DNA from: Rhynchonema sp. JSB1_4
Lineage: Eukaryota > Nematoda > Chromadorea > Monhysterida > Xyalidae
Length of the DNA: 64,000 bases
Assembly (NCBI GenBank): GCA_030248065.1
Contig: JASAMV010008519.1
Span: 1-64,000, forward strand
Direction: 5' to 3'
A program made the position numbers and the translations under genes. A model generated the notes under the pieces. That model worked only from the letters and a program-made list of their open reading frames with translations. It did not search any database and was not told the DNA's origin. Shown piece by piece: positions 361-63,967 of this stretch (the stretch's first letter is position 1; the number at the start of each line of letters is the position of its first letter).

Positions 361-1904
361 CTGCAAAAGAAAGGCGACGCACAGCGCCAGACCGAACCAG
401 CTGTGCAACGAGTACAGATTGGGCAGCGGTTTGTACTCGCCCTCGGCGTCTTTGTTGTAGTTGTGCGAATCAAACACCGCCTTCAATGCCACTGCACCGA
501 ACACAACAACCATCGCTGCAATGCAAATCACCACAATGACCGAAAAAAATTCGAAAATGGAAAGACAATTCTTCTTATGCTAAGTTCAACTGATGTTAAT
601 GGACGAACCGTGCAATGTGCCGTGTAGCAATTTCGTGAATTTCTTCCGCTCGTGACGAAAAACGCGATAGACGAGAATGGCTGAAAAAACAGTGTGTGAC
701 GAAGTTAAGCAGTAATAGCACAGCCCCTCGCCAAAATCAATCTCTCTCGAGAAAAAAACATACATTTACGCGTAATTTTCCGGCGTGGTTGGGTGTAGGG
801 TTAGAGAGATGTCGGGTGTCGGGTGCCAAAAAAAGTGTAGATGTCGGGTACCCCAGATGTCGGGTGTCGGTTTTTTTGGCACCCGACACCCGACACTTAC
901 GGTTCAAAACATCAGTTTTGCTGAGAGAAGAATTTTGAGAGAAAATTTTCTTCGAACCAAATGTTTCCGAAGACGCAGAATGTGGCATTTTGGTGTTTAT
1001 TTCGTGTGAAAATACTTGAATTCAGTAACTTGAGCCAAAAATTGCACTAATGATGCAAATGAGTAAAAACTTGCCTGTTTTTTGTCCAAAAACAGGTGTT
1101 GGTATTTTCAAAAACTAGATGTCGGGTGTCGGGTTTTTTTCGCAACTGTCGAGTGTCGGCTTTTTTTCTCAGATGTCGGGTACTTCCAGCTGTCGGGAAT
1201 CCCCCCCCCCGACCTCTAACCCTAGTTGGGTGGTTTTGGCAAGGTTTGATCAGTGATTTTTTTTGCAAGTAGGCACTTGTCAATGGCATGGCAAATGTAA
1301 ATTTTCGATTTGGCAAGTAATTTTTTTATTACTTGCCATTTGGCAAGCAAAATTCAGACATTTTTCAGCACTTAATTAGCAATGGCAAGCAATTTGGCAA
1401 GTAAATATCTTGGCGAACTTGACATTGGCAAGTGCTCAAATTTAAAACAATACCCTGCGTTAGAAGAGTTAATCAATTCGGATTCGGGAGCATTGTTTTA
1501 AAAATTTCTTGTGTAAAACTTACATTCTCCATACAAGAATATCATGCCAATTGTCATAAAAAACGGATGGTAGTGAAATTGCTGTTCGGGATTCGATTGC
1601 CAGCCGAACCCGCCGCCGAACGAGCCCATAAGAACGGCCATGAACACAACGGCCAAAGCACCTGAACAACAAACGAAATCAGTTTGTCGTTTTGTCCAAT
1701 CATCACATCGTAGAGCAGTGGCGGGAACCCAACGCAATGATGTACCAATATGCCATCCTTTAGCATTGGCTTCGGTTGCAATATGTTTCGAACAAAAACC
1801 TTACCCGCTAGCTGTGAGATCCAGAATAAGAATGTGAAGTGTTTCAATGTGTCTTCTTGGCCCTCTTCCAACGCATCGTAACGATCCATCACGACGGAAG
1901 ACAT
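361..1904 (-). CDS. Cytochrome b561 family transmembrane oxidoreductase, N-terminal exons only (gene continues off the left edge)
   Basis: Three exons join in phase on the minus strand: 1904-1805, 1661-1524 and 515-361. The 5' splice sites are GTAAGG, GTAAGT and GTCTGT, and the 3' sites end TTCAG and TTGCAG. The protein starts MSSVVMDRYDALEEG; a Met five codons in is also possible. The first helix reads FWISQLAG-ALAVVFMAVLMG. FHYHPFFMTIGMIFLYGE and NLYSLHSWFGLALCVAFLLQ follow, with the His residues that ligate haem b in this family, plus FDSHNYNKD between helices. Known role: ascorbate-dependent transmembrane electron transfer or ferric reduction in vesicle or plasma membranes. The downstream half, with the remaining helices, is not in the window. 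Intron 2 (516-1523) holds an 8-bp-TSD transposon, and the sequence left of exon 3 is repeat. The family is clear; the exact paralogue is not. Confidence 0.88.
796..1224. mobile_element. hAT-like MITE of the GTCGGGTGTCGGG family, with 8-bp TSD
   Basis: The ends are TAGGGTTAGAG and CTCTAACCCTA, flanked by a perfect 8-bp duplication GTTGGGTG (788-795 and 1225-1232). Clusters of the motif GTCGGGTGTCGGG lie inside both ends in inverted orientation, around an AT-rich core of about 200 bp. It sits in intron 2 of the cytochrome b561 gene. A second, interrupted copy spans 13949-15747. Confidence 0.85.
1225..1440. repeat. TTGGCAAG / CTTGCCAA repeat cluster
   Basis: At least eight copies of GGCAAG or its complement occur in about 200 bp, including a local palindrome around 1312-1350 (TTGGCAAGTAA, then TTACTTGCCA). 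It may be another MITE with subterminal motifs, but I could not pair its ends. Confidence 0.5.
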
Positions 1905-2163
1905 GTTGGAATGGAAATTGTCCAATGAATTTAGAACAATTGGCCTTATTGTCGACTTGTTAGTTGTTGTCTTCACAATTCTATTGTGCGTGGTAGATTT
2001 CTGTTGTGACACAAAACAGAATTAGTATTGACGTAAAAACCAAAACAGAGCCCCCAAGAATACAGCCCCGGCCCGCGCAGTGATGTGACTGGCTGGGGCG
2101 GGGGGGGGGGGGACGACCACCAAAGGTACCTGCAGTATCTTCCTCTCCAGTGTAGTGACAGGC

Positions 2164-2834
2164 CAGTGTTGAGGTACTCTGGAGGGGGGATACCGTAAAA
2201 ACCTAAATAGAAGGGGGCTCTATTAATTCACTGACCCCATTTTGAGGCTCTATTCCGGGGGGGGCTCTATTAATTCACTGACCCGAATCTGAAAAATTGT
2301 TCCCAGAAATACCACCACAAGAACCCCTAAAAAGGGGGTTGAAAGGATGTTTTTTCGCTTGTAATCGCATTTATTCATGTCTATTCGTCAATAAGAGGCG
2401 TATTATGTGCTCTGAACGAACAACAAACGTCCATAAATGTACCTGTGCACCACTATCAAGCCTTAATACACTACTGTATGATTGGGGATGTTACTTAGGG
2501 GGGCTCTATTAATTCACTGACCCCTTTTTGGGGGGGGGCTGTATTACGGGGGCTCTATTCCGGGGGGCTGTATTTAGGTTTTTACGGTACCTACTGTACC
2601 GGGCTCGGAGAGGGGGGATACCTACTGTGCCAGAGCCGATGGCCTGGGAGGGAGGGTTATGTACCTAACGGGGTTGTGGGGGTTAGGTTTTTGGGTGAAA
2701 ATTTTTAATGATTTTATTATGTGTGGAATCGTGTGAAAACGTAGTATTTGCGCGCACACCGCGCGAATTTTGGGTAATTTGAGGTAAAAAGCATTGATTT
2801 TACACTAATTTTGGCCATTTTGGTCAAAAATTGG
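2164..2834. mobile_element. Truncated CAGTGTTGGAGG-family element carrying a TA-flanked MITE
   Basis: The left end, CAGTGTTGAGGTACTCTGG, matches the intact element at 34791-35692. The body has the GGGGGATACCTACTGTACC motifs and the internal GCGCGC block at 2752. The right end is lost: at about 2835 the sequence switches into the interior of another MITE. The segment 2735-2765 is uninterrupted here (ACGTAGTATTTGCGCGC), whereas the 34.8 kb copy has an insertion at the TA. Confidence 0.7.
2193..2587. mobile_element. A-type MITE, TA target duplication
   Basis: The inverted ends are CCGTAAAAACCTAAATA and TATTTAGGTTTTTACGG, flanked by TA (2191-2192 and 2588-2589). Next to the ends lie GGGGGCTCTATTAATTCACTGACCCC blocks; the centre has CATAAATGTACCTGTGCACC. 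The TA duplication suggests mobilisation by a Tc1/mariner-like enzyme. No coding capacity. Confidence 0.85.
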
Positions 2835-2870
2835 CATTTATTCGTGCCTATTTGTCAATAAGAGGCGTAT

Positions 2871-3324
2871 TTATACTGGCAGGCGAAAAAAAAACGGTTT
2901 TTTTTCGAAAAAAAACCGAAAAAAAACCGTTTTTTTTCCGAGACCCGAATACTTTTCCATTTATTTTTCCGTGGGTATCTTTTCGGTTTTTGATCGGAAA
3001 AATATCGGTACTTTATCCCAATTTTTCCAAAAAATTGTAATGCAAAACTGATGAGTTTTTCGATTTCAGTGAAAAATTGGCTCGAGCACAAAAATTAACC
3101 GACCCAAAATGGGCCAAAAAGCGTGTAAACCAAGTGTTTTCGACTGACTTCAACACTCTTCAAGAGCACTCTCGTCAGTTCGAACAAATTTTGCACTGAA
3201 ATTGTTAAAATTTTCGAAATTACGTTCTTAAGTACTGGAAAAGTATTTGGAAAAAAACGGTTTTTTTTCGAAAAAAACCGTTTTTTTTTCACGAAAAATA
3301 AAAAACGGTTCTTTATGACAGTAT
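2871..3324. mobile_element. hAT-like MITE rich in AAAACCGTTTT palindromes, 8-bp TSD
   Basis: The flanking duplication is AGGCGTAT (2863-2870 and 3325-3332). The ends read TTATACTGGCAGG and GACAGTAT. The interior is dominated by runs such as GAAAAAAAACGGTTTTTTTTC, as in the elements at 49970-50345 and 63550-63967. Confidence 0.78.
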
Positions 3325-3400
3325 AGGCGTATTATGTGCTCTGAACGAACAGCAAACGTGCATAAATGTACCTGTGCACAACTATCAAGCCTTAATACAC

Positions 3401-3743
3401 CAGTGTAGTTCCCGGCCCCCCCCCCTAAGGTACACTAACCGCCGCGACCAAGGTACACTAACTAGCCTCAATTTTTGCCTAAAATCGGCATTTTTAGGCC
3501 TAAAATGGGCATTTTTAGCCCTAAAATGGGTGATTTTTAGGTCAATGTTCTCAAAAGTCGCCAAAAATACCCTTTTTATCGAGAATTTTTTCCAAAAAGG
3601 GGCAAAAATCGGTCAAATTTTCTACCTCAAAAAGTGACTTTTTCCTGAATTTGGGTCTTCCCCCCCCAGGGAGGTACACTAACCGCCGCACGGAAAAAAG
3701 TGGTAGGTACACTAACCGCCGCGCCGGACCAGGAACTACACTG
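3401..3743. mobile_element. hAT-like MITE of the CAGTGTAGTTCC family, 8-bp TSD
   Basis: The ends are CAGTGTAGTTCC and GGAACTACACTG, flanked by TAATACAC on both sides (3393-3400 and 3744-3751). Subterminal arrays of GGTACACTAACCGCC face each other across a core with AAAATGGGCATTTTTAG-type repeats. Confidence 0.88.
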
Positions 3744-3771
3744 TAATACACTACTGTGTAGAGGATGTTAC

Positions 3772-5628: not shown

Positions 5629-5766
5629 AGGCAAAGCAAGAGAAAACATGCACAAAACACAATAAGGATGCGGCGATAGAATTCACATAAACGGAATCCA
5701 ACCGACGAGAAACTGCCGTGTCCTAATTGTGTTAATTGTGTGTTGAGGCCTCGTTTCACGCATTAA

Positions 5767-6411
5767 AGGGGGCCTTTCGCATTTCAAACCGCCTTCAAAC
5801 TTTGCACGCATTTGAATATTGTTCAGGGCGTTATTAAACTCTCACGCACCAAGAACACAATCTGCAGCATGCGACCAGGAGATGCACTTCAAAGGGAACA
5901 TCCGGGAACAAAGTGTGCCGCGGACCAGCCCAATTTATACCTGCGCATTCAGGCAAACTGCATGATCAAAAAGGTGTCAAGGCGAATGAATGTTTCGCAT
6001 GAAACATGCAACACCACTAACTATGGAATTTCGCTTTTCTTTATATTTCGAATTTCAACGAATTGTTCCAGCGCGACAAGCAGACCTTGAAACATTTAGC
6101 AGCTAAGCGTGAACAATTCGTTGCAATTCGAAATAAAAAGAAAAGCGAAATTCTATAGTGAGGCAGGGGCAAATATCGTGCGAAACATTCTGCGCCTTGA
6201 CCGCCCTTGTCATCAGGCGAGTTGCCTGAATGCGCAGGTAGAAATTGGGCTGGTCCACATTTGATTTTGTTCCCGGATGTTCCTCTTGAAGGGCATTTCC
6301 TGGCCGCATGCTGACCGTTAGGCCTCCGGTGTGTTTGACTCTTATGACCCCTTGACCACTGTCAAAACACATGCGAGGCTTGAAGGGGGTTTGAAATGCG
6401 AAAGGCCCCCT
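5767..6411. mobile_element. TTAA-flanked foldback element (piggyBac-like), copy 1
   Basis: The ends are AGGGGGCCTTTCGCATTTCA and its complement, flanked by TTAA (5763-5766 and 6412-6415). The two halves are one long imperfect inverted repeat: GAATTTCGCTTTTCTTTATA near 6030 mirrors a segment near 6140. TTAA duplication is the signature of piggyBac transposases. No coding capacity. Confidence 0.88.
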
Positions 6412-6477
6412 TTAAATTAAGCTTGCACTTATGAAATGTGCACAGGTCTTCCTGGCTGGGGCCTAATTATAGTCTTT

Positions 6478-7349
6478 CCGTTTTATAACAGCCCAGAGGC
6501 GGTATACAGAAAATGTTTCAACGCCTTGAAAACAGCAGTCATCGTAGTGGATGATAACCAACGGGTCGACAACGTGGCTCGAAACATGCGTGTGACTTGA
6601 TGGCTGCTGTTGCGATGAAACATTTGCTGTATACTTTCTTTGGACCGAGAATAAAATGAAAGACTATACAAATATGGAAAGTTATGACAATAAAAATTAT
6701 CCTTTTAAGGGCGCCCTTAGTCATAGTGGAAAATGGAAATGGAAATGCAAAAAATATTCTATGTCCAAGTTTTCCATTTCCATTTCCATTATGACTAAGG
6801 GCATACTGGAAATGGAAAATGGAAATGGAAACAAAACATTTTCTGTGTGAAATTTGACCAATCAGCGGCCGAGAATTGAGTGGAACAGAAAATGTTTTTG
6901 TCACATGTCAAAACATGGCTGCTGCAGTAAATGTTTTATTTCATTTCCATTTTCCATTTCCAGTATGCCCTTAGTCATATTGGAAATGGAAATGGAAAAC
7001 TTGGACATAGATTATTTTTTGCATTTCCATTTCCATTTTCCACTATGACTAAGGGCGCCCTAAGAGGGGCAATTGAAATTGAAAAGTTAGTTGAAATTGA
7101 GCCAAAAGTTGACCGAAAGAGAAGTTCAGAATTGGATTCCGATAATGTTATAGTCTTTCCGTTTTATGACAGTCCAGAGGTGGTATACAGAAAATGTTTC
7201 AACGCCTTGAAAACAGCAGTCATCGACGTGGATGATAACCAACAGGTCGACAACGTGGCTCGAAACATGCGTGTTGCTTGATGGCTGCTGTTGCGATGAA
7301 ACATTTGCTGTATACTTTGTTTGGACCGAGAATAAAATGAAAGACTATA
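6478..7349. mobile_element. Two direct copies of a TAGTCTTTC MITE bracketing a foldback element
   Basis: Copies at 6478-6668 and 7149-7349 each run TATAGTCTTTC to GAAAGACTATA and are about 190-200 bp. Between them, about 6705-7063 forms a large inverted repeat: GGGCGCCCTTAGTCATA at the left end, TATGACTAAGGGCGCCC at the right, with blocks of AAATGGAAATGG and CCATTTCCATTT. The layout resembles a composite transposon built from two MITEs. Confidence 0.75.
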
Positions 7350-10212: not shown

Positions 10213-10216
10213 TTAA

Positions 10217-10860
10217 AGGGGGCCTTTCGCATTTCAAACCGTCTTCAAACTTTGCACGCATTTGAATATTGTTCAGGGCGTTATTAAACTCTCACGCACC
10301 AAGAATCCAATCTGCAGCATGCGACCAGGAGATGCACTTTAAGAAGAACATCCAGGAACAAAGTGTGCCGCGGACCAGCCCAATTTATACCTGCGCATTC
10401 AGGCAAACTGCTTGATCAAAAAGGTGTCAAGGCGAATGAATGTTTCGCATGAAACGTGTAACACCACTAACTATGGAATTTCGCTTTTCTTTATATTTCG
10501 AATTTCAACGAATTGTTCCAGCGCGACAAGCAGACCATGAAACATTTAGCAGCCACGCATGAACAATTCGTTGCAATTCGAAATAAAAAGAAAAGCGAAA
10601 TTCTATAATGAGGCAGGGGCAAATATCGTGCGAAACATTCTGCGCCTTGACCGCCCTTGTCATCAGGCGAGTTGCCTGAATGCGCAGGTAGAAATTGGGC
10701 TGGTCCACATTTGATTTTGTTCGCGGATGTTCCTCTTGAATGGCATCTCCTGGTCGCATGCTGAACGTTAGACCTCCGGGTGTTTGACTTTTATGACGCC
10801 TTGACCACTGTCTAAACACATGCGAAGTTTGAACGGGGTTTGAAATGCGAAAGGCCCCCT
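10217..10860. mobile_element. TTAA-flanked foldback element (piggyBac-like), copy 2
   Basis: Same family as 5767-6411 and nearly identical along its length; TTAA at 10213-10216 and 10861-10864. The close identity of the two copies points to recent activity of some trans-acting transposase not present here. Confidence 0.88.
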
Positions 10861-10877
10861 TTAATTGGAGCTTGGTA

Positions 10878-13653: not shown

Positions 13654-13960
13654 TAGAAGGGGGGACTCTATTAATTCACTGACCCCATTTTGGGGGCCTA
13701 TTACGGGGGCTCTATTCCGGGGGGCCTCTATTAATTCACTGACCCGAACCTGAAAAATTGTTCCCAGAAATACCCCCAAAAACCCCTAAAAAGGGGTTTG
13801 ATTGAATGAAAGGATGTTTTTCTCGCTTGTAATTGCATTTATTCGTGTATAATCGTCAATAAGAGGCGTATTATGTGCTCTGAACGAACAACAAACGTGC
13901 ATAAATGTACCTGTGCACCACTATCATGCCTTAATACACTACTGTAAGTAGGGTTAGGCG

Positions 13961-14422
13961 CAGTGTAGTACTTGGTCAGGGTGTTGACGATAGATAGATT
14001 GGGACCCGAAATGTGTTGACGATAGATAGATGACCCAAGTCCGAAATCTGGGGGGGGGTCGACCCAAACTTGTTGACGATAGATAGATGGTGGGGGGGGG
14101 GGTCGCCAAAAATCAAGGTATAGTATAGTGTACTAAGTAGGTAATAATGTGTAAATGTTAATGAAAATGTACTTAGATATACTAAATCCGCGCTTTTTTT
14201 GCCTATTTGGGACAAAAAATACCGATTTTGAGCCATTTTGAGGCAAAAATACCCGTTTTGGGGTCGAAATGTGTTGACGATAGATAGATTGTTCCCAGAA
14301 TTTGTTGACGATAGATAGATTTGCCCATAAGTGTTGACGATAGATAGACGAAATCAAAGTGTTGACGATAGATAGATGAATTTGGGGGGGGACCCCCCCC
14401 CACCCCCCCAAGTACTACCCTG
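13961..14422. mobile_element. hAT-like MITE of the GTTGACGATAGATAGAT family
   Basis: The ends CAGTGTAGTACTTGG and CCAAGTACTACCCTG enclose clusters of GTTGACGATAGATAGAT, all in one orientation, on both sides of the core. The 8-bp duplication is imperfect (GGGTTAGG on the right; on the left it is followed by CG). Confidence 0.75.
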
Positions 14423-14437
14423 GGGTTAGGGTTAGAG

Positions 14438-15286
14438 CAGTGTGGTGGTTGGTGGCAGGCCAATCGACCCAAGATACCCTAGGGGGGAAGGTTTCGGACT
14501 TACTCGAGATACCCCCCAGAGACTACCCAAGATACCCCTATGGTCCGTCAAAAGGCGAAAAAGGCCGTTTTTTGCATGCAATTTTACTGCAAAATTGGCC
14601 TAAAAATGGGTATTTTTTGACATTTTTGCCGAAAATTGGCCTAAAATGACCATTTTTGGGTGTCTGCGCGCGGAGCGCGCGATTTTTGGGGGTCCCGAGG
14701 TCGAAAAACACCTATTTTTGCCTTTGAAAACCATAAATCTACTTACTCGAGATACCCTTTGGGGTCGACTCGAGATAGATACCCTTCCCCCCTCCCCCAT
14801 CCCCTCCCCTAAGGGTTGACTCGAGATAACCCGTATTCCCTAAAATAGAGCCCCCCAAAAAATACAGCCCCCCTAAAAGGGGTCAGTGAAAAATAGAGCC
14901 CCCCAAAAATACAGCCCCCCCCCCCAACTTGGAATTCCTCGGTTGGGGGTCGTAAAGTCAAGTTCTTGTATAAGACACCTTGTGTACAACGTTTGTGGTT
15001 GAGTATATGATGACGTAAAGCCTTTTATGGAAGATCTGCACCTAAAAACACTCAATAATGACGAGTAACACCCTGACAGAACTCCATTTTATGCGTATTT
15101 TTTGGAACATTTTTTGAGATTTTGGGCAGCGAAAAAATACAGCCCCCCCCCAAAATAGAGCCCCCAAAAATACAGCCCCCCCTAAAAGGGGTCAGTGAAA
15201 AAATACAGCCCCCCTTGTATTTTAGGTTTTACGGTAGATACCCCTTAGGGGGGGAATCCCTCCCATCCCCCCCAGCCACTACAGTG
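14438..15286. mobile_element. hAT-like MITE of the CGAGATACCC family with a nested B-type MITE
   Basis: It is flanked by GGTTAGAG (14430-14437 and 15287-15294); the ends CAGTGTGGTGG and CCACTACAGTG. Subterminal motifs read ACTCGAGATACCC or ACCCAAGATACCC. A GCGCGCGGAGCGCGCG hairpin lies at about 14666. A B-type MITE occupies about 14831-15234. Confidence 0.82.
14831..15234. mobile_element. B-type MITE inside the previous element (innermost level)
   Basis: It runs CCGTATTCCCTAAAATA to TTTTAGGTTTTACGG, with TA on the right (15235-15236) and a slightly altered left junction. Its centre shares ACAAGGTGTCTTATACAAGA-type sequence (reverse complement here) with the copy at 32602-33013. Confidence 0.78.
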
Positions 15287-15819
15287 GGTTAGAGGGCCGA
15301 CACCCGACATCTGGAAGTACCCGACACCCGACATCTCAGAAAAAAGCCGACACCCGACAGTTGCAAAAAAACCCGACACCCGACATCTAGTTTTTGAAAA
15401 AAAACCGACACCCGACACCTGTTTTTGGACCAAAGACAGGCAAATTTTTGCTCATTTGCATCATGAATGCAATTTTTTGGCTCAAGTTACTGAATTCAAG
15501 TATTTTCACACGAAATAAACACCAAAATGTCACATTCTGTGTCTTCGGAAACATTTGGTTCCAAGAAAATTTTCTCTCAAAATTCTTCTCTCAGCAATAC
15601 TGATGTTTTGAACCGTAAGTGTCGGGTGTCGGCTGTCGGGTGTCGGGTCCGAAAAAACCCGACACCCGACATCTGGGGGTACCCGACACCCGACACCTAC
15701 ACTTTTTTGGCACCCGACACCCGACACCCGACGTCTCTCTAACCCTAACTGTAAGGGGATGTTACTTAGGTGGGGCTCTATTAATTCACTGACCCCTTTT
15801 GGGGGCTGTATTACGGGTA

Positions 15820-19552: not shown

Positions 19553-19863
19553 CAGTGATGTGGTTGGGGGTGTAGGAGTAATACCCCCAACCCTGGGTCA
19601 GCCATCTAATGTATGTCTACCGAAAAAAACCATACGCCAACCCCAGCTATCTATGTCTACGATGTCCAGACATCAACCAAAAGGTGTTGAGTTTAGCGTA
19701 AAAATGGCCATTTTATGGTCTAAAATGGTCAAATTTTCTCATATTTTCCCTGATATGCAGAAAATTACGCTTTTTAAGCTCTATATTAGCATAATTTTCA
19801 CCTTATGCCGAGCTGGGCCTCTCCAGCTATCTATGTCTACCACCCGGACCAACTGCATCACTG
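19553..19863. mobile_element. hAT-like MITE in the 3' UTR of PPP4C
   Basis: The ends CAGTGATGTGGTTGG and CCAACTGCATCACTG are flanked by CTTGTGAA (19545-19552) and CTTGTGGA (19864-19871), seven of eight identical. It lies between the stop codon and the polyadenylation signal, so it is probably transcribed as part of the mRNA. Confidence 0.82.
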
Positions 19864-30532: not shown

Positions 30533-30968
30533 CAGGGTAGTACTTGGGGGGAGGGGGTGGGGGGTCCCCCCCCCCAAATTCATCTATCTATCGTCAACAC
30601 TTTTTGATTTCATCTATCTATCGTCAACACTTATGGGCAAATCTATCTATCGTCAACAAATTCTGGGAACAATCTATCTATCGTCAACACATTTCGACCC
30701 CAAAATGGGTCTTTTTGCCTCAAAATGGCTCAAAATCGGTATTTTTTGTCCACATCTAAGAACACTTTCATTAATATTTACACATTATTACCTGCTTAGT
30801 ACACTATACTATACCTTGATTTTTGGCGACCCCCCCCACCATCTATCTATCGTCAACAAGTTTGGGTCGACCCCCCCCCAGATTTCGGACTTGGGTCATC
30901 TATCTATCGTCAACACATTTCGGGTCCCAATCTATCTATCGTCAACACCCTGACCAAGTACTACACTG
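30533..30968. mobile_element. hAT-like MITE of the ATCTATCTATCGTCAACA family, 8-bp TSD
   Basis: The ends CAGGGTAGTACTTGG and CCAAGTACTACACTG are flanked by TTCTGGTC on both sides (30525-30532 and 30969-30976). It has at least eight ATCTATCTATCGTCAACA units in two clusters. It is the reverse-orientation counterpart of 13961-14422. Confidence 0.88.
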
Positions 30969-32598: not shown

Positions 32599-32601
32599 AT
32601 A

Positions 32602-33013: not shown

Positions 33014-33054
33014 TAAGTACTTGTAATTTATTTGAAAAAAAACGGTTTTTTTCG

Positions 33055-43917: not shown

Positions 43918-44735
43918 CAGTGGCTCGTTGCAAAATCAAAAGTCAGGATTCCGGATACCCAAAGACGAAATTTTCGGATACCGGACACCCAAAATGAAAA
44001 ATCTCGGATACCAGGGGGTTACCCCCAAAATAAAAATCTCGGATACCCGGGGGGTTTATTCAAAAAGGTGCATTTTTCAGAGGACAATTGAGCAAAATCG
44101 CTGAAGGAAGGGTAAACATGGACATTTTAGGGGCTACGCTTGCGTCAGCAAGGGATTTCGAGCATTTCAGAGGTAAAAATGGTCGATTTTTAGTTTCCGC
44201 AAAAGTTTTAAGGTAGAATACGATACCTTGGACAAAAGTCAGGACACTGGATACCCTGGGTCAGTGTAGCTCCTGGTCCGGAGGGGGAACAGGCGGTACC
44301 TCCTTTTTTCGAAGGGGAACAGACGTACCCACCTGGGGGGAAGGGCGGGAAGGACCCAAATTTGGAGAAAAGTCATCTTTTTAGGTCGAAAATTTGGCTC
44401 ATTTTTGCCCCGTTTTTAGAAAAAAAATCTCAATAAAAAGGGTATTTTGGTGACTTTTGACGACATTGACCTAAAATCACTCATTCTATGCCTAAAAATG
44501 CCTATTTTAGGCCAAGATTTGCCTATTTTAGGCAAAAATTGGGGGAGCAGACGTACCCGGAAGGGGAACAGTGGGGCAGGCGTACCACGGAGGGGGAACA
44601 GACGTACACAAAGGGCCCCCCTCCCGCCTCCCCAGGAACTACACTGCCCTGGGTTAAAAAATGAAAATACCGGGTACCGAATACCAGGCCGCAACCCCCT
44701 CCCCAACCCCACGCCCCTCCCCAACGACATCACTG
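43918..44735. mobile_element. CAGTGG...CACTG element of the GGTATCC family, with nested element
   Basis: The left end CAGTGGCTCGTTG and right end CAACGACATCACTG resemble those of 61690-62113; CGGATACC motifs lie at both ends. It carries the element 44272-44646 inside. No clean 8-bp duplication remains. Confidence 0.68.
44272..44646. mobile_element. hAT-like MITE of the CAGTGTAGTTCC family, 8-bp TSD
   Basis: The ends CAGTGTAGCTCCTGGTCC and CCAGGAACTACACTG are flanked by CCCTGGGT (44264-44271 and 44647-44654). GGGGGAACAGACGTACC arrays lie on both sides. Confidence 0.88.
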
Positions 44736-45429: not shown

Positions 45430-48400
45430 CCACCGCAGTTTTGCTCTTTCTATCACATGTGCTTTCGAGTTTTCATTACCGATGTTTTCAGCATGTCGAA
45501 TGATAACAAGACCAACAACGTCTTGTGACAAACACTGGTATTGGCACGAGCTTGAGCACAACAACCAAGACCGTTCCCTGAACGCCAGTTACCAAGTGGG
45601 TGGGTCTCGGTCAAAAAAATGTGAGGCCACTGCGACTGCGAACACAATTAGCGAACGGTCAAAATCGATCAATCCAACCAACCTGTTCACAAATATTTCG
45701 CAGCGGAATGTCATCGGCGAGCCGTTTGCGCACAAAGTCCACAACTTCTTGACTCGTTAGAGAATTCCTGTGTAACAAACAAACAGCATTTGATGTCACC
45801 AGTTGCAGTTGCTCTTGGTGTCCGGCATGGACTATGTACGCGATTTCACACGGAAATGCTTCGGATGCAATTTGCGCAACAAGCAGTTGATTTAGTTGGT
45901 CAAATTTCACTTCCAAACAACGTTGAATTCTGGCATTAAAAACATGAGAAACTTCGGATAAATAGCGAAGATATTACCAAATGCCGTCGCAAGCCAGCAC
46001 CATGAATTCATCTTTGTCGGTCAGTTGTTCGCTTTGTACATCAGGCAACGCTGAGATCATTTGAGCAGAAAGCGGCAGCGAAGTGTTCTTCTTGTAGAAA
46101 TGGTCGCCTGTGTGTGCGGTGCATGATAGTTCGCAAAAAAAAGGTTATTGTGTGAAACGAAATTCATCGCCGACCTGAAGCGCTGAACGCTTATCTGGCT
46201 GTGATTTGTATAACCAGATTTGGGTTGTTCTTTCAACCTGTTTTCCAAGACGGTGCATCAATACACTCGCGCTAGATAGTCACGTGACGCAAAAGACACC
46301 GTTTTATGCTCTTACCTAATCCCAACAGGTACAATCATTCATTCCTTAGTAAAGTGTAGCACATAAACACAATTGGCGCGTCTGGCATAATAGTTGGACC
46401 CAGGGTTGAAAAAAAAAATTTTTTTATTAACGAGCTTTTTTTTTAAAAAAAAAATTTTTTTTTTTGATTTTTTTTTGACGAAAAATTTTTTTATTAGAAA
46501 AAGTGTTGCAAACGACGTTTCAAGATAAATGAAATCGATACAACATATTTTTCAAAAATTGAAAAATTTTCGCCTCAGACCGAACTTGTGTGGTGACACC
46601 CGGTAGTATTGTGCAGATTCCATGGTCTCCGACCAGTCTGAGGTTGATGTTCACTAACGATGTTACTCTGATGTATTGTAGCATGCCGTACAACGTATTT
46701 TAATGCATCTAATGCCGTATATCTGATATACGACCATCAAAATATCGATTACAGCCCAAATCTTGCGCGTCAGATCGACTTTGCCGCCCGGTTTTGCACC
46801 AGACCTGCATATATATATGTGTAGTAGCATGTAGTAGCACATTATCGGTGCCACATCACTATAAAAGACCAGCCCCGCGCATCCCTGTACGGATTTGGGG
46901 ACAATACAGGGCGCCGCAGGCGCGATTTTGGAAAAATTGTCTCGTCCACAGAAAAAAGTGCTAATTTTTTACCTCGAAAAAGGCCATTTTTGGACATTTT
47001 AGCCCATTTTGGGCAACTTTTTTTTATTAAAAAAAAAAGCAAAATCTGAGTTTCAAAAAAAAAATTTTTTTTTTTTTAAAAAAATTTTTTAATTGACCAC
47101 TTTTTTTTTGAAACAACCCTGGTTGGACCTCTAATTAACACGATGCCCATTATTATTGTGTGACGGTGACAGCCAAAAAATCACGCCGGCAGACCACGTA
47201 CCGAAAGCGCGCGACAGATTTAGTCCTCCATTTACCCGGCCGTCGATCGAGATTTTGCCCCCGGCAGCACTGATACGTTTCCTTTCAACGTCGTCTTCCG
47301 GCTTGTGGTCCTGAGAAACGACGACCGCATTTGCGGTTTTTGAAATTGATTCACATCCAGTTTTATAAGAAAGATACTCAGAGTTCAAGCGTGAATGTCA
47401 CAGTAAGTATTGTTTTGAAGCGAAAAATTGGCTTGAAATGGCTATCGTATTTCCTTTCTATGCAAGGCAATCGAAACAAACGACCCAATTGTATAGCTCA
47501 TGCTCAACTCCTATTTGAGGTCGAGATTTCAGAAAACCAAGGAAAGAGATCACATATGTGTCCTTGCTAATCAAACACTGCAGTCAGCAGCAAACATAGT
47601 GGAATGTTTCATTGACATGCTGGCAGCGCACACGCAAAAAGCTCACAGCGAGCATGTGAAACATTGCTGTCGTTAGATTCCACAGGCAAACTTTGCCACG
47701 TTTTTGCTAACTGCGTGATCGAGATGAGTCGAAATTGTAATCTTCTCGACCGCCGCAACTAACAGTTCATTTAAAACACAACACAAAGTCGTTTGTTTCC
47801 ACGGACCAAGAAAAACAGGAAACTAACCTGAGATAAATCCAATGCCTTTCCGGCCCGACACAACACACAACGACTGTCGCCGATATTGACGACGTGTATT
47901 GAATCCCGAGCCAACAAGGCCACGCATGCAGTCGTGCCGCTGTCTTCGCCAGGCTGCAGTCAGCAACGCTGGCTTGTGTTCGGTCAATTAAAAACAAAGT
48001 GAAGTATCCAAAAAATCCGAATCATCACTTTTAGCGCTGATGTTTTTCTCATCAAACGGAACACATTGATTAAAAGCAGCAATTCTGCATTGGAAAAAAT
48101 CAATAATGCAAAGGGGCGAGCCATTAAATCCAACACCACCAACCGTATCACCGGTGGGACACATGAAATTCTCCTCCTCCTCGTCCTCTTGATATATCAA
48201 GGCCTCTCCCGCCTCAGACCCGGACTCAGAGTCCTGGTTTTCGTCCGGATTCTCCGGTGCGTCGCTCGAATCGCCATCGCTTTCATCTTCGGCGGACGAA
48301 CCGCCGGCTTCCGAACTAAAAAAACGTTGACTGAAAATCATCATGCTCCATTTTGTATTCCTCAACGTGTGACATTTCCCAAATCAGCAGCCACGTATTC

Positions 48401-51400
48401 GTATAGTCCCGCCACGAACTCATGAGACGACTTTGTTTTGAAGTTGACTTGAACGGATCCAATAATGTTCCGGTTCCACGTATTTCGGAAATGAAAGAAA
48501 GAGAAACGCATGTATTTTTTTAAAAACACGCTCTTATCTCGGTGCGTAAATTCCCTTTTGACTCCCAAAACATTTGTGTGTTGAACAACGTTGCTGTTCG
48601 TGAAAGCACGCAACAAATTGAGGTCAGCCGGCTGGAACTTGTCATCATGTCTCTCAGCCCAATCTCTTTCTTTTGTTTGCGAAAACACGTGTAGCCGTAG
48701 CATTTTTGAATCTGGCTTAGCAAGCTTTAAAAAAAGTCGTCTCATGAGCTCGTGGCTGGACTATACCTATGAATGTTTCACTGTTCTACCAGCTCCGAAA
48801 TCGAGCTCGTGTTGGTGTAGTTTGCGTATATACATCTTGTTTAGAAAATGGCGTGTGCTGCTGCATGCGTTGTGTGTATAAAAAGTGCCATGAGCCGACG
48901 GATTGCCTATACTTATCAACCATTGGATAGCATGGTTTTCGTATCACCTGTGCTTTATATGCACTTAGAACACATTATGTAACAAAAATACCCCTATTTT
49001 GTACTTGAGCGCTCATTTTTTATCGTGTTGGGCAGATTTTGGCTGGAATAAAAAATGGGGGTATCTCGAGTAACTGCGGATCCTTCCCCCCAAGGGAATC
49101 TTGGGTCAATTGACAATCAAACACACCTCTCATCCTCAGCATCGCTGCTTTCATCCACGTGGTCTTCGTCACTTTCATCTGATGTTTCATCCGCCTGCAG
49201 CTCTCCACCACATGTAGCTCTCGCCTGCTTTTTCTGCAAATCAATGAAACAACAATGAAGCACGGTTTTTGTTCAAAGTTCAACAGGAACAATTTGCACC
49301 TAGACGTCCGAATTTTAGGTGCAAATTTACAAAATTTTAGTTGCAAGATGACTGATCTAACGTAAATTGGCCAAATTCTAGGCGCACATTAGACCCGAAC
49401 CCCAATTTTTAGCCGCAAATAAAGTTTTAGGTCCAATTTGCGGAAACAAATTCGTCCAAGTTATGTATACTCTGACAATTCTTTTGGGAGAAACTTTTCA
49501 AACGCGTTGCCTGATCCGTAAAGCACACGATGCGTGCACTGGCTATAGCGGTCACGTGACTTCCGCAGCCAGTGCACGCATAATGTGCTTTACGGATCAG
49601 GCAACGCGGTTGAAAAGTTTCTCCCAAAAGAATTGCCAGAGTATATGTTGACGCTTATTGTTACTGAGCTGGCAATTTGAGTGCACAACCCCCATTTAAA
49701 ATTTACGACCGACCTCGGTCTTTCTACTGCCATTTCCCACCAACACCGAGTCTCACCTGCTGCGCACTAGTGCCACTGCCCGACGCACCAGGTGATGTTT
49801 TATCAGCATCATCGTCATTATTGTCTTCGCGTTCATCACCACTGTTCGATGGCGCCGTCGCCGTTTCGGGACTTCTGCAAGCAAAACATAGCATGATTGT
49901 TTGACTTCAATATTTGAGGGAACTTAAATTGCTCTGTTCGTATCCTAACTACCTGTCTGTATAGTTGCGTATTTTTCCACAGAATATATTTTTGGAAAAA
50001 AACCGGTTTTTTCAAATATTTTTCTAATAAAGGTCGTAATAAATAAATCCATGTTCAAAAAACGCCTATTTGGGAGAAAATTTTGTCGGACAACAGACTA
50101 AAAATGCATTTGGAGCTTGAAAAATGCTCATTTTGAACTGTTTAGCACCGATTTACAGTGGTTTTGACAACATCATTTTGCAACCTAGGAAAATTTCTCG
50201 GAAATTTTTGAAAAAAAACCGTTTTTTCCAAAACCTGCCACTAGAAAAAATTTCCGGAAAAATAAACACGTGTTTTTCCAGGCCTCGGAAAAAACTGTTT
50301 TTTCGGTTTATTTCCGAAAAAACGGTTTTTCCGACGAGGAATATACCTGTCAGCACATACCGACAACACTTCAAAATGCCAGATAGCTATATACGTACGT
50401 TCAAAGGTAAAAAGCAACTTCGACAAAAGTATAAACAGATGTGAGATAAACGCACTCGACATTGCGCGTCTTGTCGTGATCGTTTGCCAGATTGCGCACA
50501 TTCTTCCACGATTGCATCGCCGTGTCGACGTATTTGGCCGGCTCACCAGCCTCAGACTCGGACTTGGATGAGCGTTGACGCGGACTGGTGCTCGATGGAG
50601 AGTGTGCCTGAAAATGGAATGCTATGGAATGCTGCACAGAGAGCAACGTTGACACACATGATGATTGTAGCACCAATTTGACACATTTCGTCCGTTCACG
50701 GCCCAAACGAGTCCCAACGACCCAGTTCTGATGGACGGAGACAGACAAATGATCGGAAACCGATCAAACTGTGTCAACCTACGTTCCGTGCTGATTATAT
50801 TCAAGCGACTCGCGTTCATGTCAATCCTTCTTTCACCCTTCATTCAAGCAAGCAAAGGAGCAAAAAAAGTAGCAGTGGTGTAGTTGGGACTTGGGAGTAC
50901 TCCCCCTCCCTGGTATGGGGTATGCGAAATCGGCCGGGCGTATGAGGTATGGGAAATGTTTCACTTATGAACAATCACCCCTAAGAAATAAACTTTTTGA
51001 CCCAGAGAACTACCAAAATTGACCATTTTTCGCCTAAAAATGTCAAAAATCGCTTGCTACCGCAAGAAAACCCCGTTTTAAGCACTCTTTAGACGAATTT
51101 TTGGCACTTTTAGAAGATTTTTTGGGTCATTTTCTCAGAAACCCCACCCTCGGGTATCGGAAATTTTTGGAGAACCCCCTGGTACAGGAAATTTTTTATC
51201 TTTGGGGGCATGTATGGGAAATTTCCCGAAAATTGGGATGGGTATGGGGAAATTTCGATTTCTCAACGACACCACTGTACTGTATGTGCGTGTGGGTGGG
51301 GGTGGGTGTGTGGCCCCTCCAGCGGCGTGCGCGTGTGGCGCTTTCAACTGTGTGGGTTTTTTCGTCACCCACACACCAACAATAGCAGCAAAATTTTGTT

Positions 51401-57087: not shown

Positions 57088-60000
57088 CTACAGCGTTTTG
57101 TTTTTCATTCGCTTTTCGTTTAACTTCCATTCTTTGTAGTGACAACGCTCCAGTTCTTCTTCCGATAATTCCACCTCGCACACCTGTGAAACAATCAATA
57201 ATGCTCGATAAGATAAACGCCCATTTCTGTGAGTTGTTGACCAGATTTAGGGAAGCCATGCAGGTACTCAATTCCAAACATATACCTTCTGAACGAGAAA
57301 GTTCTCTTCGGTGATCGGTCCAGCGATGTTTTTGACGACTTCCAGCGTTGCGTGTTGGTCAGACAATCGTTTCAATTGTTCCTTCGAGCCCACACTGCCG
57401 CGCAACAGCACCAGCGCTACTTTGAACAGGACCTTGACGCCTGCGACACATTCAGTTGGTCATGAAGGGGTCAAGCGATCATTGGCATGTGCTTTAGGCG
57501 ATGACACAAATACACGCCACATTTATTTTTCAATGCCTTTATTTCTTGTCCAATATTGCAATAATTCGTTACTACAAGTGTAATTGTAATTTGCCTCTTT
57601 TTCGGAATGCGCACCTGGGTTTGTCTTTCACTGAAAAATTAATGAAACATCAAGCAAGAGGAAACGGACCTTCACAAAAGAACATGTCCCAAATCCTGAG
57701 CACGGTCGCCCAGGGCAGTGTTCGACAGTAGATACACATGAACCACTCAATTGTATACAGCACTGGGTCGATATCCTGTTGTTTCTGCAATTGTACTTGA
57801 AAATGTCCGCATTTTGCGAGAAAAAAAAGAATCAGTGAAGACACCAAACTATACAGAAAGTCATCACAAGTAACGAACTCACAAAATGTTTGTAAGTGGA
57901 CGGCGCCCGCTTTTTCAGTATTCTGTGCAATATTCTGCCGTCCATTTGTACTTGATCCTGAAAAACCAAACAATGAAATTCTGTTCGCATTAGAGTTGGT
58001 GTGCAGCCCGGCCAACACAACAGTACCGTTACGTTTACGCCTTTCCCGGTTACTTATTGGTGCACAACACAAAATAAGAGAAGCAACTCTAGTTTCATTT
58101 GATGTGGAACGTTCAAAGTTGCGGAACGAAAACAACTGACTTGCCTACAGCACTCACCAATCCAGCGCTGTAATATCCCGGCAAATATTTGTGACAGATT
58201 TGGACGAAACAGTAGAATGCGTCGCGTAAAGGCATGTGCATCAACAACATGGCAGCGACGGGGGCATGCGCTTGACAGTAGCCCTCTTCCGGGTGCAGCA
58301 CCGTGTACGCCTTCAACAGACGCATCAACTCCTCGCGACTAAAATTGAACCAAATATTTTGGGAGGCCTGACAAACTGCTACGTGCTACTAGTATTGTAT
58401 GCAGCTCTTTACTCCCAGCTTTCACTTGAAAATGGCCCAAATCAACAAACAAACGCACCCGACTCTGCCGTATCTGCTCTCTCTGGCGAACAATTCGTGT
58501 TCGGGAAATTGTCGATCGAGATCTTTCACAATATCGTCGTTCCACTGCGGGTCACCGGGGTGCGCATCGAGCTGCTGAAACATCAAAAGCAAAATCAAAA
58601 GCGTCCAGCTTCTCAATGTTTGCTTTCTAAAATGGTCAGGTTGGCAAACCAACTTGTTTTACAAAGCAAGGACAAACGACAGTCCCCAACCGAACCTCAA
58701 ACGTGTGTCTACTAGATGGATGTGTCATGTGATAGTGTGCGCCACAAAGATGGATCCAAACACGACCTCTAAGTGACGACGGAATGCCTTTACGACAGCG
58801 CTCGCGCACCTGAAAATAGCGAAAATAGTGAAAATAGCGGCAGTGCAACAAGTTACTCTGATGTTCGACAGAAGTAAAACATTTTAGATAGTGCAAAAAG
58901 GTGGCATGCCGTACCTCTGGCTTTATGCGCAAAACGTTGCCAGATCACAGATGATACACACTCTCGCACATTAGTAGGTCGCCTCAGCATTGCCAATTGC
59001 ACTACACCAGGTCCCCCAGACCAACCTTTTCATAATGTTTGCTCATAACATGTGGCCAGTTGTCCAGCATATCAAGCCATTTCTTCTCACGACGTCTCAA
59101 TGTGCTGATATCACGGGGATTCAAGCTGAAATATTTCATTGGCTAACAAAATGCGTCTCTCAATCAACCACACAACAAAGCTGCAGTCCAGTGGTGTCGT
59201 TAGGGGGGTTGGGGGGGAGGTTACCCCCTGGTATGGGGTATGGGAAATCGGCCGGGGGTATGGGAAATTTTTCACTTTTGGAACAAGCACCCCTAAGAAA
59301 TGACTTTTTGACCCAGAGAAGTACCAAAATTGGCCATTTTTCGCCTAAAAATGTCAAAAATCGCTTGCTGTCGCAAGAAAACTCTGTTTTAAGCACTTTT
59401 GGACCACTTTGTGGTACCTTTAGAAGATTTTTTGGGGTCATTTTTTTTCAAAACCCCCACCCTCGGATATGGGAAATTTTTGAGTTTTTGGAGAAACCCC
59501 CCTGGTATGGGAAATTTTTGATTTTTGGGGGTATGTATGGGAAATTTCCCGAAAATTGGGCTGGGTATGGGAAAATTTCGATTTCTCAACGACACCACTG
59601 CTGCAGTCCCCTACATTTCAACACCGTGTCAACTCTAAAAAAACAAAAGCAACGTACGAATTTTCATCAGCGACTGGCCCATGACCAAGTCCGTTTGTGC
59701 TCGTGCACGAATTGTTCGATTTTTGCGGCCTCAGAAATCCATATCGATCGATCGTATCTGCCGAAAACAGCGCGCCATTATTATTGCCCGCCGTTGCTGT
59801 TGTCGTCACGGTATCGGGCGCCTCGGCTTCATTCTCATTCGAGTTCATCTGTAATTATTGCTGCGAATATTGTGCTTCTTATAAAATTAAACATTGTTCA
59901 CTTCATCAAAATTTTTTTAGTCTTGAGTTCCCTTTGCTTACATCCCAACTCAAACACCATCAGGTTGGCCAGTAAAATTGTCGAGCGGCAACGTTCACTC

Positions 60001-60948: not shown

Positions 60949-60949
60949 G

Positions 60950-61282: not shown

Positions 61283-61625
61283 CAGTGTAGTTCCTGGGGG
61301 GAGGGGGTCCCCCCCCTCGGGTACGTCTGTTCCCCCTCCGTGGTACGCCTGCCCCACTGTTCCCCCTCCGGGTACGTCTGCTCCCCTAATTTTTACCTAA
61401 AATCGGCAAATTTTGGCCTAAAATAGGCATTTTTAGGCATAAAATGAGTGATCCTTAGGTCAGTCAATGTCTTCAAAAATCGCCAAAATACCCTTTTTAT
61501 TGAGATTTTTTTCCTAAAAGGGGCAAAAACGAGCCAAATTTTCGACCTCAAAAATGACTTTTCTCCAAATTTGGGTCCTCCCCCCCCTTCCGGGTCCGTC
61601 CCCCCCCCTTCCCCCCAGTGCTGTG
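61283..61625. mobile_element. CAGTGTAGTTCC-family MITE, right end degraded
   Basis: The left end CAGTGTAGTTCCTGGGGGGA, then TCGGGTACGTCTGTTCCCCC arrays and the shared CAAATTTGGGTCC core. The right side dissolves into poly-C near 61620. Confidence 0.7.
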
Positions 61626-61689
61626 GCTGGGGGGGGGGGTGGGGGGTCCTCCCCAATGGTACCCTACCCGCCCCGGCCTGGTACGCTAC

Positions 61690-62113
61690 CAGTGGTGTCG
61701 TTGGGGGGGGGGGTTACCCCCCCCTAGTATCCGGTATCCGGTATCTTGATTTTTTCACCCAGGGGTATCCGGTATCCTGACTTTTGGTCCAGGGGTATCC
61801 TACCCTAAAATTTTTCCGAAAACCGTAAAAATCGCCCATTTTTACCTCTAAAATGCGCAAAATCGCTTGCTGGCGCAAACATAACCCCAAAAATGACCAT
61901 TTTTTGCGCTTCCAACACCAATTTTGCTCAATTTTCCTCTAAAAAATTGACCTTTTTTGAACAACCCCCCCTGGGTATCCGAGATTTTTTATTTTGGGGA
62001 GCAACCCCCCCCCCTGGTATCCGAGATTTTTCATTTTGGGTATCCGGTATCCGAAAATTTTGGATTTTGGGTATCCGGTATCCTGACTTTTTCATTTCCC
62101 AACGACACCACTG
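61690..62113. mobile_element. hAT-like MITE of the GGTATCC family, 8-bp TSD
   Basis: The ends CAGTGGTGTCGTTGG and CCAACGACACCACTG are flanked by perfect TACGCTAC (61682-61689 and 62114-62121). CGGTATCC arrays lie at both ends. It is inserted in a CTACCCGCCCCGCCCTGGTAC tandem repeat (61660-62200). Confidence 0.9.
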
Positions 62114-62286
62114 TACGCTACCCCCTACCTGCCCCGCTCTTGTACCCTACCCCCTACCCGCCCCGCCCTGGTACCCTACCCGCCCCGATTTTTACCCCCA
62201 AAATGCCCATTTTTCGGTCAAAAATGCCCAAATTTCGACCGAAAACCCTAAAAAGTGCAAAAAAATCTCGCGCTGCGCGCGATATA

Positions 62287-62450
62287 CCGTAAATACCTAA
62301 ATACAAGGGGCGCTCTATTAATTCACTGACCCCATTTTCAAAAAATTATTTTCGTTTCTCAGCGAGAGCGTTCCAAATCCGGTGTTATTTTCGATCGATA
62401 TTCCGAGGGGGGCTCTATTCCGGGGGGGGGCTCTATTTAGGTTTTTACGG
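62287..62450. mobile_element. A-type MITE, internally deleted, TA-flanked
   Basis: The ends CCGTAAATACCTAAATA and TATTTAGGTTTTTACGG between TA (62285-62286 and 62451-62452). Only 164 bp; it sits beside a GCGCTGCGCGCG hairpin of the host repeat. Confidence 0.82.
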
Positions 62451-62451
62451 T

Positions 62452-62794: not shown

Positions 62795-63198
62795 CAGTGT
62801 AGTTCCTGGGGGGAGGGGGGTCCCCCCCCTCGGGTACGTCTGTTCCCCCTCCATGGTACGCCTGCCCTACTGTTCCCCCTCCGGGTACGTCTGCTCCCCC
62901 AATTTTTACCTAAAATGGGCAAATTTTGGCCCAAAATAGGAATTTTTAGGCATAAAATGAGTGATTTTTAGGTCAATGTCGTCAAAAATCGCCAAAATAC
63001 CTTTTTTATTGAGATTTTTTTCCTAAAAGGGGCAAAAATGAGCCAAATATTCGACCTCAAAAAATGACTTTTCTCCAAATTTGGTTCCTCCCCCCCCCTT
63101 CCGGGTCCCTCCCCCCTTCCCCCCCCCCCAGGTGGGTACGTCTGTTCCCCCCTCCGAAAAAAGGGGGGTACCGCCTGTTCTCCCTCCGGACCAGGAAC
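62795..63198. mobile_element. CAGTGTAGTTCC-family MITE, right end cut by the next element
   Basis: The left end CAGTGTAGTTCCTGGGGGGA; the right terminal CCGGACCAGGAAC is broken off exactly where the next CAGTGTAG starts (63199), so the second copy seems to have inserted into the first one's terminal repeat. Confidence 0.75.
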
Positions 63199-63529
63199 CA
63201 GTGTAGTTCCTGGTCCGGAGTGGGAGATAGCGGACCCCCCGTTTTTTTCGGAGGGGGAGATAGTGTACCCCCGAGGGGGGAAGGGGGGGAAGACCCAAAT
63301 TCGGGAAAAGTCACTTTTTGAGGGAGAAAATTTGACCTATTTTTGCCCCTTTTTGGAAAAAATTTTTCATAAAAAGGGTATTTTGGCGACTTTTGAGAAC
63401 ATTGACCTGAAAATCACACATTTTAGGCCTAAAAATGCCCATTTTAGGCCTAAAAATAGCCATTTTAGGCAAAAATTGGGGGAGATAGTGTACCCGGAGG
63501 GGGAGATAGGGGGATAGTGCACCACTGTG
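63199..63529. mobile_element. CAGTGTAGTTCC-family MITE, second of a head-to-end pair
   Basis: Starts CAGTGTAGTTCCTGGTCCGG; GGGGGAGATAGTGTACCC arrays at both ends. Its right end (about GTGCACCACTG) does not carry the remaining bases of the first copy. Confidence 0.68.
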
Positions 63530-63549
63530 GCTGGGGGGGTCCCCCCAAT

Positions 63550-63967
63550 TATACTTGCGGGCCGGAAAAAAAACCGTTTTTTTTCGGAAAAAAAAACCGA
63601 AAAAAAAACGTTTTTTTTCCGAGGCCCGGAAAAATACGTTTTTATTTTTCCGGAAATTTTTCCAAGTGGCAACTTTTGGAAAAAAACCGTTTTTTTTCCA
63701 AAAATTTCCGAAATATTTTCAAAGGTTGCGAAAGGATGTTGTCAAAACCAATGTAAATCGGTGCTAAACAGTTCAAAATGAGCACTTTTTAATCTCCAGG
63801 TGCATTTTTAGCCTGTTTCAGACCATTTCCAGACGAAATTTTCTCCAAAATAGGCGTTTTTGGACCGTTTTAAGTACTGGAAAAATATTTGGAAAAAAAC
63901 GGTTTTTTTTCCGGAAAAAAACGGTTTTTTTCCAAAAATATATTTTGCGGAAAAATACGCAAGTATA
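63550..63967. mobile_element. hAT-like MITE of the TATACTTGCG family, 8-bp TSD
   Basis: The ends TATACTTGCGG and CGCAAGTATA are flanked by CCCCCAAT (63542-63549 and 63968-63975). The interior is built of AAAACCGTTTTTT palindromes and a GATGTTGTCAAAACCAATGT core shared with 49970-50345. Confidence 0.88.

Follow-up and report, generated by a model that had tools for sequence, protein, structure and literature searches.

Short repeated words are exchanged on a conserved scaffold in hAT-type miniature transposons of the nematode Rhynchonema sp. JSB1_4

Results

The window analyzed here, the 64,000 nucleotides at positions 1 to 64,000 of contig JASAMV010008519.1 (our C5227:1-64000) in the genome assembly of the nematode Rhynchonema sp. 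JSB1_4 (GCA_030248065.1; 203.9 Mb in 5,747 contigs), contains elements with paired ends and 8-bp flanking duplications, most of which are non-autonomous miniature inverted-repeat transposable elements (MITEs) of the hAT type. They are short, noncoding, homogeneous and present in high copy number, and between their terminal repeats most of them carry arrays of one short repeated sequence, which we call a word. Our main finding concerns one set of these MITEs, group A, in which the word differs between sister classes at all of its sites on a scaffold of ends, spacers and core that the classes have in common. To detect elements, we scanned for terminal repeats flanked by duplications and then drew up a list of boundaries. 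The preliminary description of this DNA had counted 17 exact 8-bp duplications; the paired-end elements proved to be real, with 18 exact cases, one of which is a nest of elements (13949-15747), and a further two in which seven of eight bases match. Of the 3,318 terminal-repeat pairs compared, 15 had flanks identical over 8 bp, 3 over 6 bp and 1 over 10 bp, with none at 7 or 9 bp; decoy offsets, of which 30 were tried, gave a mean of 0.23 matches of 8 bp and never more than 3, versus the 15 observed in the same scan. The unnested window elements with CAG, TAG or TATA ends are mostly 311 to 454 bp long, and those ending in CAGGGTTG measure 693 to 728 bp. The terminal inverted repeats of hAT elements are short and start with CAG or TAG; such starts were found in groups A, B, C, D, E and F, in the CAGGGTTG elements and in H1 and H2, two coding relatives in the same genome, and are lacking in the TATACTTG/TATACTG elements.

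The earlier proposal that most families share one layout was borne out. Using a single word pattern per family, picked by the analyst, we found the word in both halves of 13 of the 14 MITE representatives, the exception being the CAGGGGTGG/CAGAGGTGG-ended element at 32187-32575 (no strand assigned; exact duplication), whose word GGGCCGG, as this pattern defines it, was confined to the right half. The word also lay on a single strand in 13 of the 14; here the exception was the D1 MITE at 796-1224 (plus strand; ends TAGGGTTAGAG; exact duplication GTTGGGTG), in which TGTCGGG occurs in eight forward and two reverse copies (2/10 reversed). Across 16 representatives, these two were the only reversed copies. 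An inverted arrangement of the arrays, like that of the terminal repeats, was therefore rejected, and the combination of inverted terminal repeats with direct word arrays makes the elements polar. Runs of G or C were seen in the alignments of groups A, B and C, and core words, chosen after the sequences had been read, occurred at 4.61 per kb inside the elements versus 0.56 outside. Exceptions to the layout are the A/T-block arrays of the elements starting at 38763, 41713 and 46401 and of the TATACT-ended elements, and the core of 796-1224, which differs from that of the other elements.

Group A is represented in the window by an A3 element at 3401-3743 (minus strand; word GCGGCGGTTAGTGTACC; deletion of two of the five sites; exact duplication TAATACAC), by A2b elements at 44262-44646 (plus strand; word GGGGGAACAGACGTACC; exact duplication) and 62795-63199 (minus strand), by an A2 fragment at 61283-61627 (minus strand) with one end replaced, and by an A1 element at 63199-63528 (plus strand; word GGGGGAGATAGTGTACC) that adjoins the second A2b element and lacks its right end. 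An alignment of 21 copies was divided into word sites and a core of 133 to 134 columns, from which all-G/C columns were left out. Five homologous sites hold GGGGGAGATAGTGTACC in A1, GGGGGAACAGACGTACC in A2, GCGGCGGTTAGTGTACC in A3 and GGGGAAATTAGTGTACC in A4, apart from minor variation at individual sites, and the ends, spacers and core are common to all four word classes. Differences were concentrated in the sites for A1 and A3 (26/84 in the sites, 6/133 in the core; rough Fisher p value of 1.6e-7), A1 and A4 (22/84 and 5/133; 2.2e-6) and A3 and A4 (20/85, or 24%, and 5/134, or 4%; 1.2e-5), as they were for A2b against A3 (49/85 and 21/134; 1.4e-10), A2b against A4 (36/85 and 24/134; 1.6e-4), A2a against A3 (47/85 and 31/134; 2.7e-6) and A1 against A2b (29/84 and 22/133; 0.003). 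The relation is reversed between A2a and A2b, which differ at 4/85 site positions (5%) and 31/134 core positions (23%; 2.3e-4). All 102 scored sites of the 21 copies (three sites are deleted) carried the class word of their own copy, a count that measures agreement within copies, as the classes were named from the words. Between A3 and A4, three offsets of the word have changed identically at 5/5 sites, and in 200,000 simulations with independent sites at most one offset changed in this way in any run. The word is flanked by constant parts, a G run and a GTACC half, with the variable half beside them. The genome holds 13,171 matches to GGNNNNTAGTGTACC versus 48 in a reversed control, and in the first 100 of these matches the discrete words, tallied by eye, were CGGT in 39, GAGA in 21, AAAT in 16, GGGA in 11, GGGG in 5 and six others in 8.

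Two explanations that need no binding protein bear directly on this alignment. The classes could be ordinary subfamilies that descend from old, unrelated founders with different words and were later amplified, the shared scaffold being convergent DNA of low complexity. Each class probably does stem from few founders, and classes C1 and C2 of another group, described below, share little besides ends and layout; in group A, however, the A1, A3 and A4 cores are about 96% identical over 133 to 134 columns, with ends and spacers in common, which excludes convergence there, and founder effects alone do not account for an element having undergone one and the same replacement at five sites. We consider this explanation very unlikely. 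Alternatively, gene conversion, slippage or re-duplication could have homogenized the words, with no selection for binding involved. One A2a copy (L092) holds an A2b-like tract in its core, pointing to gene conversion or recombination between subfamilies and showing that exchange between copies occurs, and the words of H1, H2 and D1 are short tandem units. The changes in group A, on the other hand, do not reach beyond a word of about 8 bp, and the spacers are kept across classes, where re-duplication would have brought the flanks along, and the word has been kept between A2a and A2b despite the 23% difference in their cores. Homogenization of this kind is, in our judgment, quite unlikely to account for the exchange.

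The elements are not particular to the window. The exact 20-base end of group A occurs 4,391 times in the genome, the exact 16-base end of group C 2,895 times and the B1 word GGTTGCAAGGTACC 6,105 times, versus 0 in the control for each. We sampled 20 listed group A ends by going through the contigs in order and taking the first end on each, two contigs being skipped; for 14 of these ends, the sequence retrieved extended to the right end of the element. Copies without duplications, or with arrays at one end, had been named beforehand as evidence against the proposed architecture; in this sample the duplication was present in 13 of the 14 complete group A copies (11 exact and two with one mismatch; the remaining copy had none), and words stood at both ends in 13/13 aligned copies, with the internally rearranged L099 left out of the alignment. 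Eight group C copies, chosen because both of their ends were listed, all had the duplication and the words (8/8), one duplication being cut by the contig end after three matching bases. A DNA search with A1 returned 39 other full-length matches of 96 to 98% identity among the 40 scored of 2,819 candidates; these are best matches, and typical identity may be lower.

The link to hAT elements comes from H1 and H2. H1 has 17-bp ends (CAGTGTTCGAACGGGAT), the word GATCCCG arrayed directly at both ends, 8-bp duplications and an exon for the hAT dimer domain, and one copy (on contig C3828) carries both BED and dimer pieces. H2 has 17-bp ends (TAGGGATCGGCGTCGGT), direct arrays of CCGACACC at both ends, 8-bp duplications and either a BED exon or a dimer exon. 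The profile search with PF05699 (dimer domain) gave at least 150 hits, with 150 of 330 candidates scored, and that with PF02892 (BED) gave 32. Fifty dimer-domain loci (52 rows), classed by word count, comprised 41 H1, 7 H2 and 2 with only two or three H1-like words. At the 18 loci examined for the hAT link, an element with its duplication was found in 15, exact in 14. The duplication consensus of hAT elements is nTnnnnAn; the H1 duplications tend towards it, with T at position 2 in a fraction of 0.73 (n=33). Given that H1 and H2 combine ends of the CAGTG/TAGGG type, 8-bp duplications, direct arrays and pieces of PF02892 and PF05699, we place the CAG/TAG-ended groups among the hAT elements, and the data support the view that the layout of the window MITEs belongs to hAT elements of this genome. 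The hAT relationship suggested earlier therefore stands for these groups; the TATACTG/TATACTTG elements lack CAG/TAG ends. A BED finger and a C-terminal dimer domain between ends of the same kind were found in H1 and H2 only, and the 50 dimer loci inspected included no coding copy of groups A, B, C, E or F. The sole locus at which a hAT catalytic domain was found (L070, C4164:1-9000) holds a multi-exon gene that matches DUF659, followed downstream by a second, partial copy, and contains nested MITEs; its own ends could not be placed. Another locus (L108, C3010:7000-9800) has a gene for several BED-like fingers in which we saw no arrays, possibly a hAT-derived host gene.

The CAAAAATGGC-type units of the core are A-tracts on alternating strands. 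In 11 group A cores, distances between pairs of tracts cluster near 10, 20 to 22, 30 to 32 and 40 to 42 bp, and over 16 window elements, several of them from one group, the pair score peaks at 10.5 bp (0.40 versus a background of 0.11). With eight non-A elements pooled, 0/2,000 shuffles reached the observed score, and 2/2,000 did so when two A/T-block elements were removed. Taken singly, D1, 32187-32575 and 63550-63967 showed no clear A-tract phasing. Predicted curvature lies in the upper background range in most elements, D1 and F excepted. A curved core spacer that helps the two ends meet would be the natural reading of the A-tract phasing.

Among the remaining elements of the window, group B includes a B1 copy at 31443-31875 (plus strand; word GGTTGCAAGGTACC, 3+3 direct; exact duplication) and a B2 copy at 14438-15286 (plus strand; exact duplication GGTTAGAG) with a further nested element. 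The B2 copy lies within the nest at 13949-15747, a D1 copy (ends TAGGGTTAG, exact outer duplication ACTGTAAG, no strand assigned) broken up by nested elements, together with a nested F-family element at 13961-14422 (plus strand; GTTGACGATAGATAGAT) whose flanks are mismatched (2/8); another F copy at 30533-30968 (minus strand) has the exact duplication TTCTGGTC. Class C1 of group C is found on the plus strand at 25157-25579 (word TATGGGAAAT; exact duplication CCTCAACT), 59189-59600 (exact duplication) and 50873-51277, where the flanks are mismatched and which falls outside the earlier count as far as that was given; C2 is found at 61690-62113 (plus strand; word TATCCGAGAT / GGTATCCGGTATCC; exact duplication). 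Group E comprises an E2 element at 33306-33717 (plus strand; word GGGGCGGCAACCTACC; exact duplication) and an E1 element at 34791-35692 (plus strand; word GGATACCTACTGTACC; ends CAGTGTTGGAGG; exact duplication), in which a TA-duplicating element is nested at 34988-35426. No strand was assigned to the other elements, namely a TATACTG-ended element with A/T-block arrays at 2872-3325 (exact duplication GGCGTATT), whose hAT membership is uncertain, a CAGTGATG-ended element at 19553-19863 with a duplication of 7/8, the three CAGGGTTG-ended elements with A/T-block arrays at 38763-39455, 41713-42440 and 46401-47121 (each with an exact duplication, the third 89% identical to the first), a TATACTTGC-ended element with A/T-block arrays at 63550-63967 (exact duplication CCCCCAAT), and its TATA-ended relative at 49960-50345, which has a weak terminal repeat and flanks CCTGTCTG/CCTGTCAG (7/8) and whose start had been placed at 49970. 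In the three CAGGGTTG elements and 63550-63967, all with 8-bp duplications, blocks of A and T stand where the words would be. Further inverted-repeat elements, of other kinds, lie at 6709-7060, 5764-6416, 10215-10865 and 48411-48756, their limits being rough and set mostly by eye. At three loci elsewhere (L065:1306-2506, L008:2202-2619 and L067:3089-3517), elements are nested in other MITEs with the duplication within a word of the target (GTTGCAAG, GTTGCAAG and CCGGATAC).

Discussion

The word arrays described here are a variant of the known subterminal repeats of hAT elements, in which (Hermes, Herves, Ac, Tol2 and Tag1) short repeated sites inside the terminal repeats are bound by the transposase and insertion yields 8-bp duplications. 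The Hermes transposase binds short subterminal motifs through its BED finger (PMC10368747), the Herves transposase likewise binds short subterminal motifs (PMC3143072), and the BED + Hermes DNA-binding domains of hAT proteins have diverse 8-mer preferences, with the motifs of four of these proteins matching the subterminal regions of their own elements (PMC8097297). Orientation is a point of difference, given that in Hermes the left-end (LE) repeats LE-STR2 to STR7 are described as antisense and the right-end (RE) repeats RE-STR1 to STR5 as sense (PMC10368747), whereas the words here are one-stranded at both ends with few exceptions. We propose that the words are subterminal transposase-binding sites of hAT MITEs whose specificity has been switched in concert, a reading to which we give a probability of roughly 0.6 and in which the binding is inferred. 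Each end usually has two to five copies of one word on the same strand, set in a frame formed by the short terminal repeat, the G/C run and a core whose A-tracts are in helical phase. The words would be putative sites for the N-terminal DNA-binding domain of the transposase, that is, the BED finger and a neighboring domain, and a conserved part of the enzyme would act on the constant terminal repeat, with the curved core aiding in bringing the ends together. Once a transposase lineage shifted its preferred DNA, only copies with matching sites would keep moving, so the word would change at all sites and the remainder would stay, and near-identical elements could come to answer to different proteins. 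A constant terminal repeat beside an exchanged word would be explained most simply if the catalytic part of the enzyme had been conserved and its DNA-binding part had changed.

Several observations weigh against this proposal or support it only in part. The Fisher tests assume independent columns, which makes their p values rough, and by these tests the contrast is weak for A2a against A4 (34/85 in the sites, 32/134 in the core; p of 0.015) and for A1 against A2a (29/84 and 32/133; p of 0.12). Group B shows the same contrast as group A less cleanly: B1 and the one B2 copy differ at 45/84 word positions and 32/186 core positions, the words of that copy vary among themselves (CTCGAGATACC, CCAAGATACC), and B3 is represented by a single copy (in L008) with GTGAGAGGTAWGTA-like words and an identity of about 72% to B1. 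The C1 word TATGGGAAAT occurs in nine copies of group C and GTATCCG words of C2 in four, both in none, on common ends; their cores differ at 61/133 positions, which is a constant layout without a constant scaffold, and for this reason we no longer count group C as another clean example of word exchange. Word replacement is also not always concerted, since two group E copies (L071:596-942 and L040:2605-2947) carry TGCAATCAACC-like words on the left and other words on the right; these mixed copies are perhaps intermediates of a word change. The T at position 2 of the MITE duplications reaches just 0.44 (n=42), a weak match to nTnnnnAn. Phasing of A-tracts goes beyond 5% of shuffles in only 2/16 single elements, and predicted curvature is only modestly high by a wedge model that is suggestive only. 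The search for partners with the same ends, which the preliminary description had called for, was fruitless: neither profile searches nor tblastn found a transposase with the ends of group A, B, C or E. PF14372 and PF14291 had 0 genome matches each, their controls being likewise silent, and PF04937 matched the single locus on C4164, whose gene returned only itself by tblastn. The 50 dimer loci inspected are part of 150 scored out of 330 candidates, and a partner could lie among the remainder. H1 and H2 provide only two pairs of word and BED domain, too few to test whether the one tracks the other.

A further point of the same kind concerns elements that are unrelated to hAT. The same layout is seen in a family of TA-flanked MITEs with CCGTAAAAACCTAAAT-type ends (2193-2587, 34988-35426 and 62287-62450 in the window; L046:339-747 and L052:535-972 elsewhere), which carry two to seven direct GGCTSTATT words per copy on one strand together with G runs. 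The element at 32601-33015 looks like a variant of this family whose word has TTTTTT replacing TTAATT. Because the layout recurs in these TA-duplicating MITEs, the pressure behind it may reach beyond hAT elements. In its broadest form, the word would be an exchangeable address, by which sister transposons gain independence through a change at all sites with ends, spacers and curved core kept, and the TA elements would follow the same strategy under a common pressure, such as escape from cross-mobilization, titration or silencing. We hold this extension tentatively and think it somewhat doubtful.

The TA-duplicating MITEs, for which a hAT enzyme offers no explanation, also lend some weight to a different account, in which the arrays are targets of an anti-silencing or regulatory protein encoded by a transposable element, or of a host repressor, and the turnover of words is driven by an arms race against silencing, not against the transposase. 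The model for this is the VANDAL/VANC system of Arabidopsis. VANDALs are Mutator-like elements with 9-bp duplications, and no pair with identical 9-bp flanks was present among our 3,318, the duplications here being of 8 bp. The likeness lies in noncoding motif arrays that differ between close relatives (PMC5735166, PMC10398659), and VANC target motifs are described as tandem repeats that vary between related elements with several units diverging together (PMC5735166). Those motifs are found upstream and in introns and are gained and lost, whereas in group A the sites stand apart from one another at constant positions, and the spacers between them are conserved. The words lie near the ends of short noncoding MITEs, which need transposase binding to move, and H1 and H2 tie the layout to hAT genes with BED domains. 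We regard a silencing-related role of the arrays as unlikely, and return to transposase binding as the reading that we favor.

The exchange of words on an aligned scaffold, which is clear in group A and partial in group B, is what a specialist would find unexpected. The earlier idea of fast-evolving arrays on a fixed scaffold holds strongly in group A, in which the scaffold is homologous up to and including the ends, less cleanly for B1 and B2, and fails for C1 and C2, which have only ends and layout in common. Its companion, that each family has different ends, was partly right and does not apply to A1 to A4 or to C1 and C2, which share theirs, or to B1 to B3, which nearly do; different ends were rejected as an organizing principle for groups A and C. 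Searches of the open-access literature listed no case in which the word had been exchanged at all sites of near-identical elements, although one may have been described. The work on CGG-binding proteins derived from hAT DNA-binding domains compares proteins, mostly across species (PMC8097297); in our case it is the DNA sites that show the change, among sister elements within one genome, with the proteins absent from the comparison. Coral CMITEs are similar in that the inner part is more conserved than the ends, and one family was traced to a piggyBac-like element; the passages available on them describe no exchange of repeated words (PMC2872659).

It has long been asked how a DNA-binding protein can change in step with numerous sites scattered through a genome. 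Group A presents four states of the sites in one genome, in many copies and on an aligned scaffold, with a constant and a variable half that can be read base by base. It would permit a direct test of a change in specificity and of whether word exchange stops lineages from mobilizing each other's MITEs.

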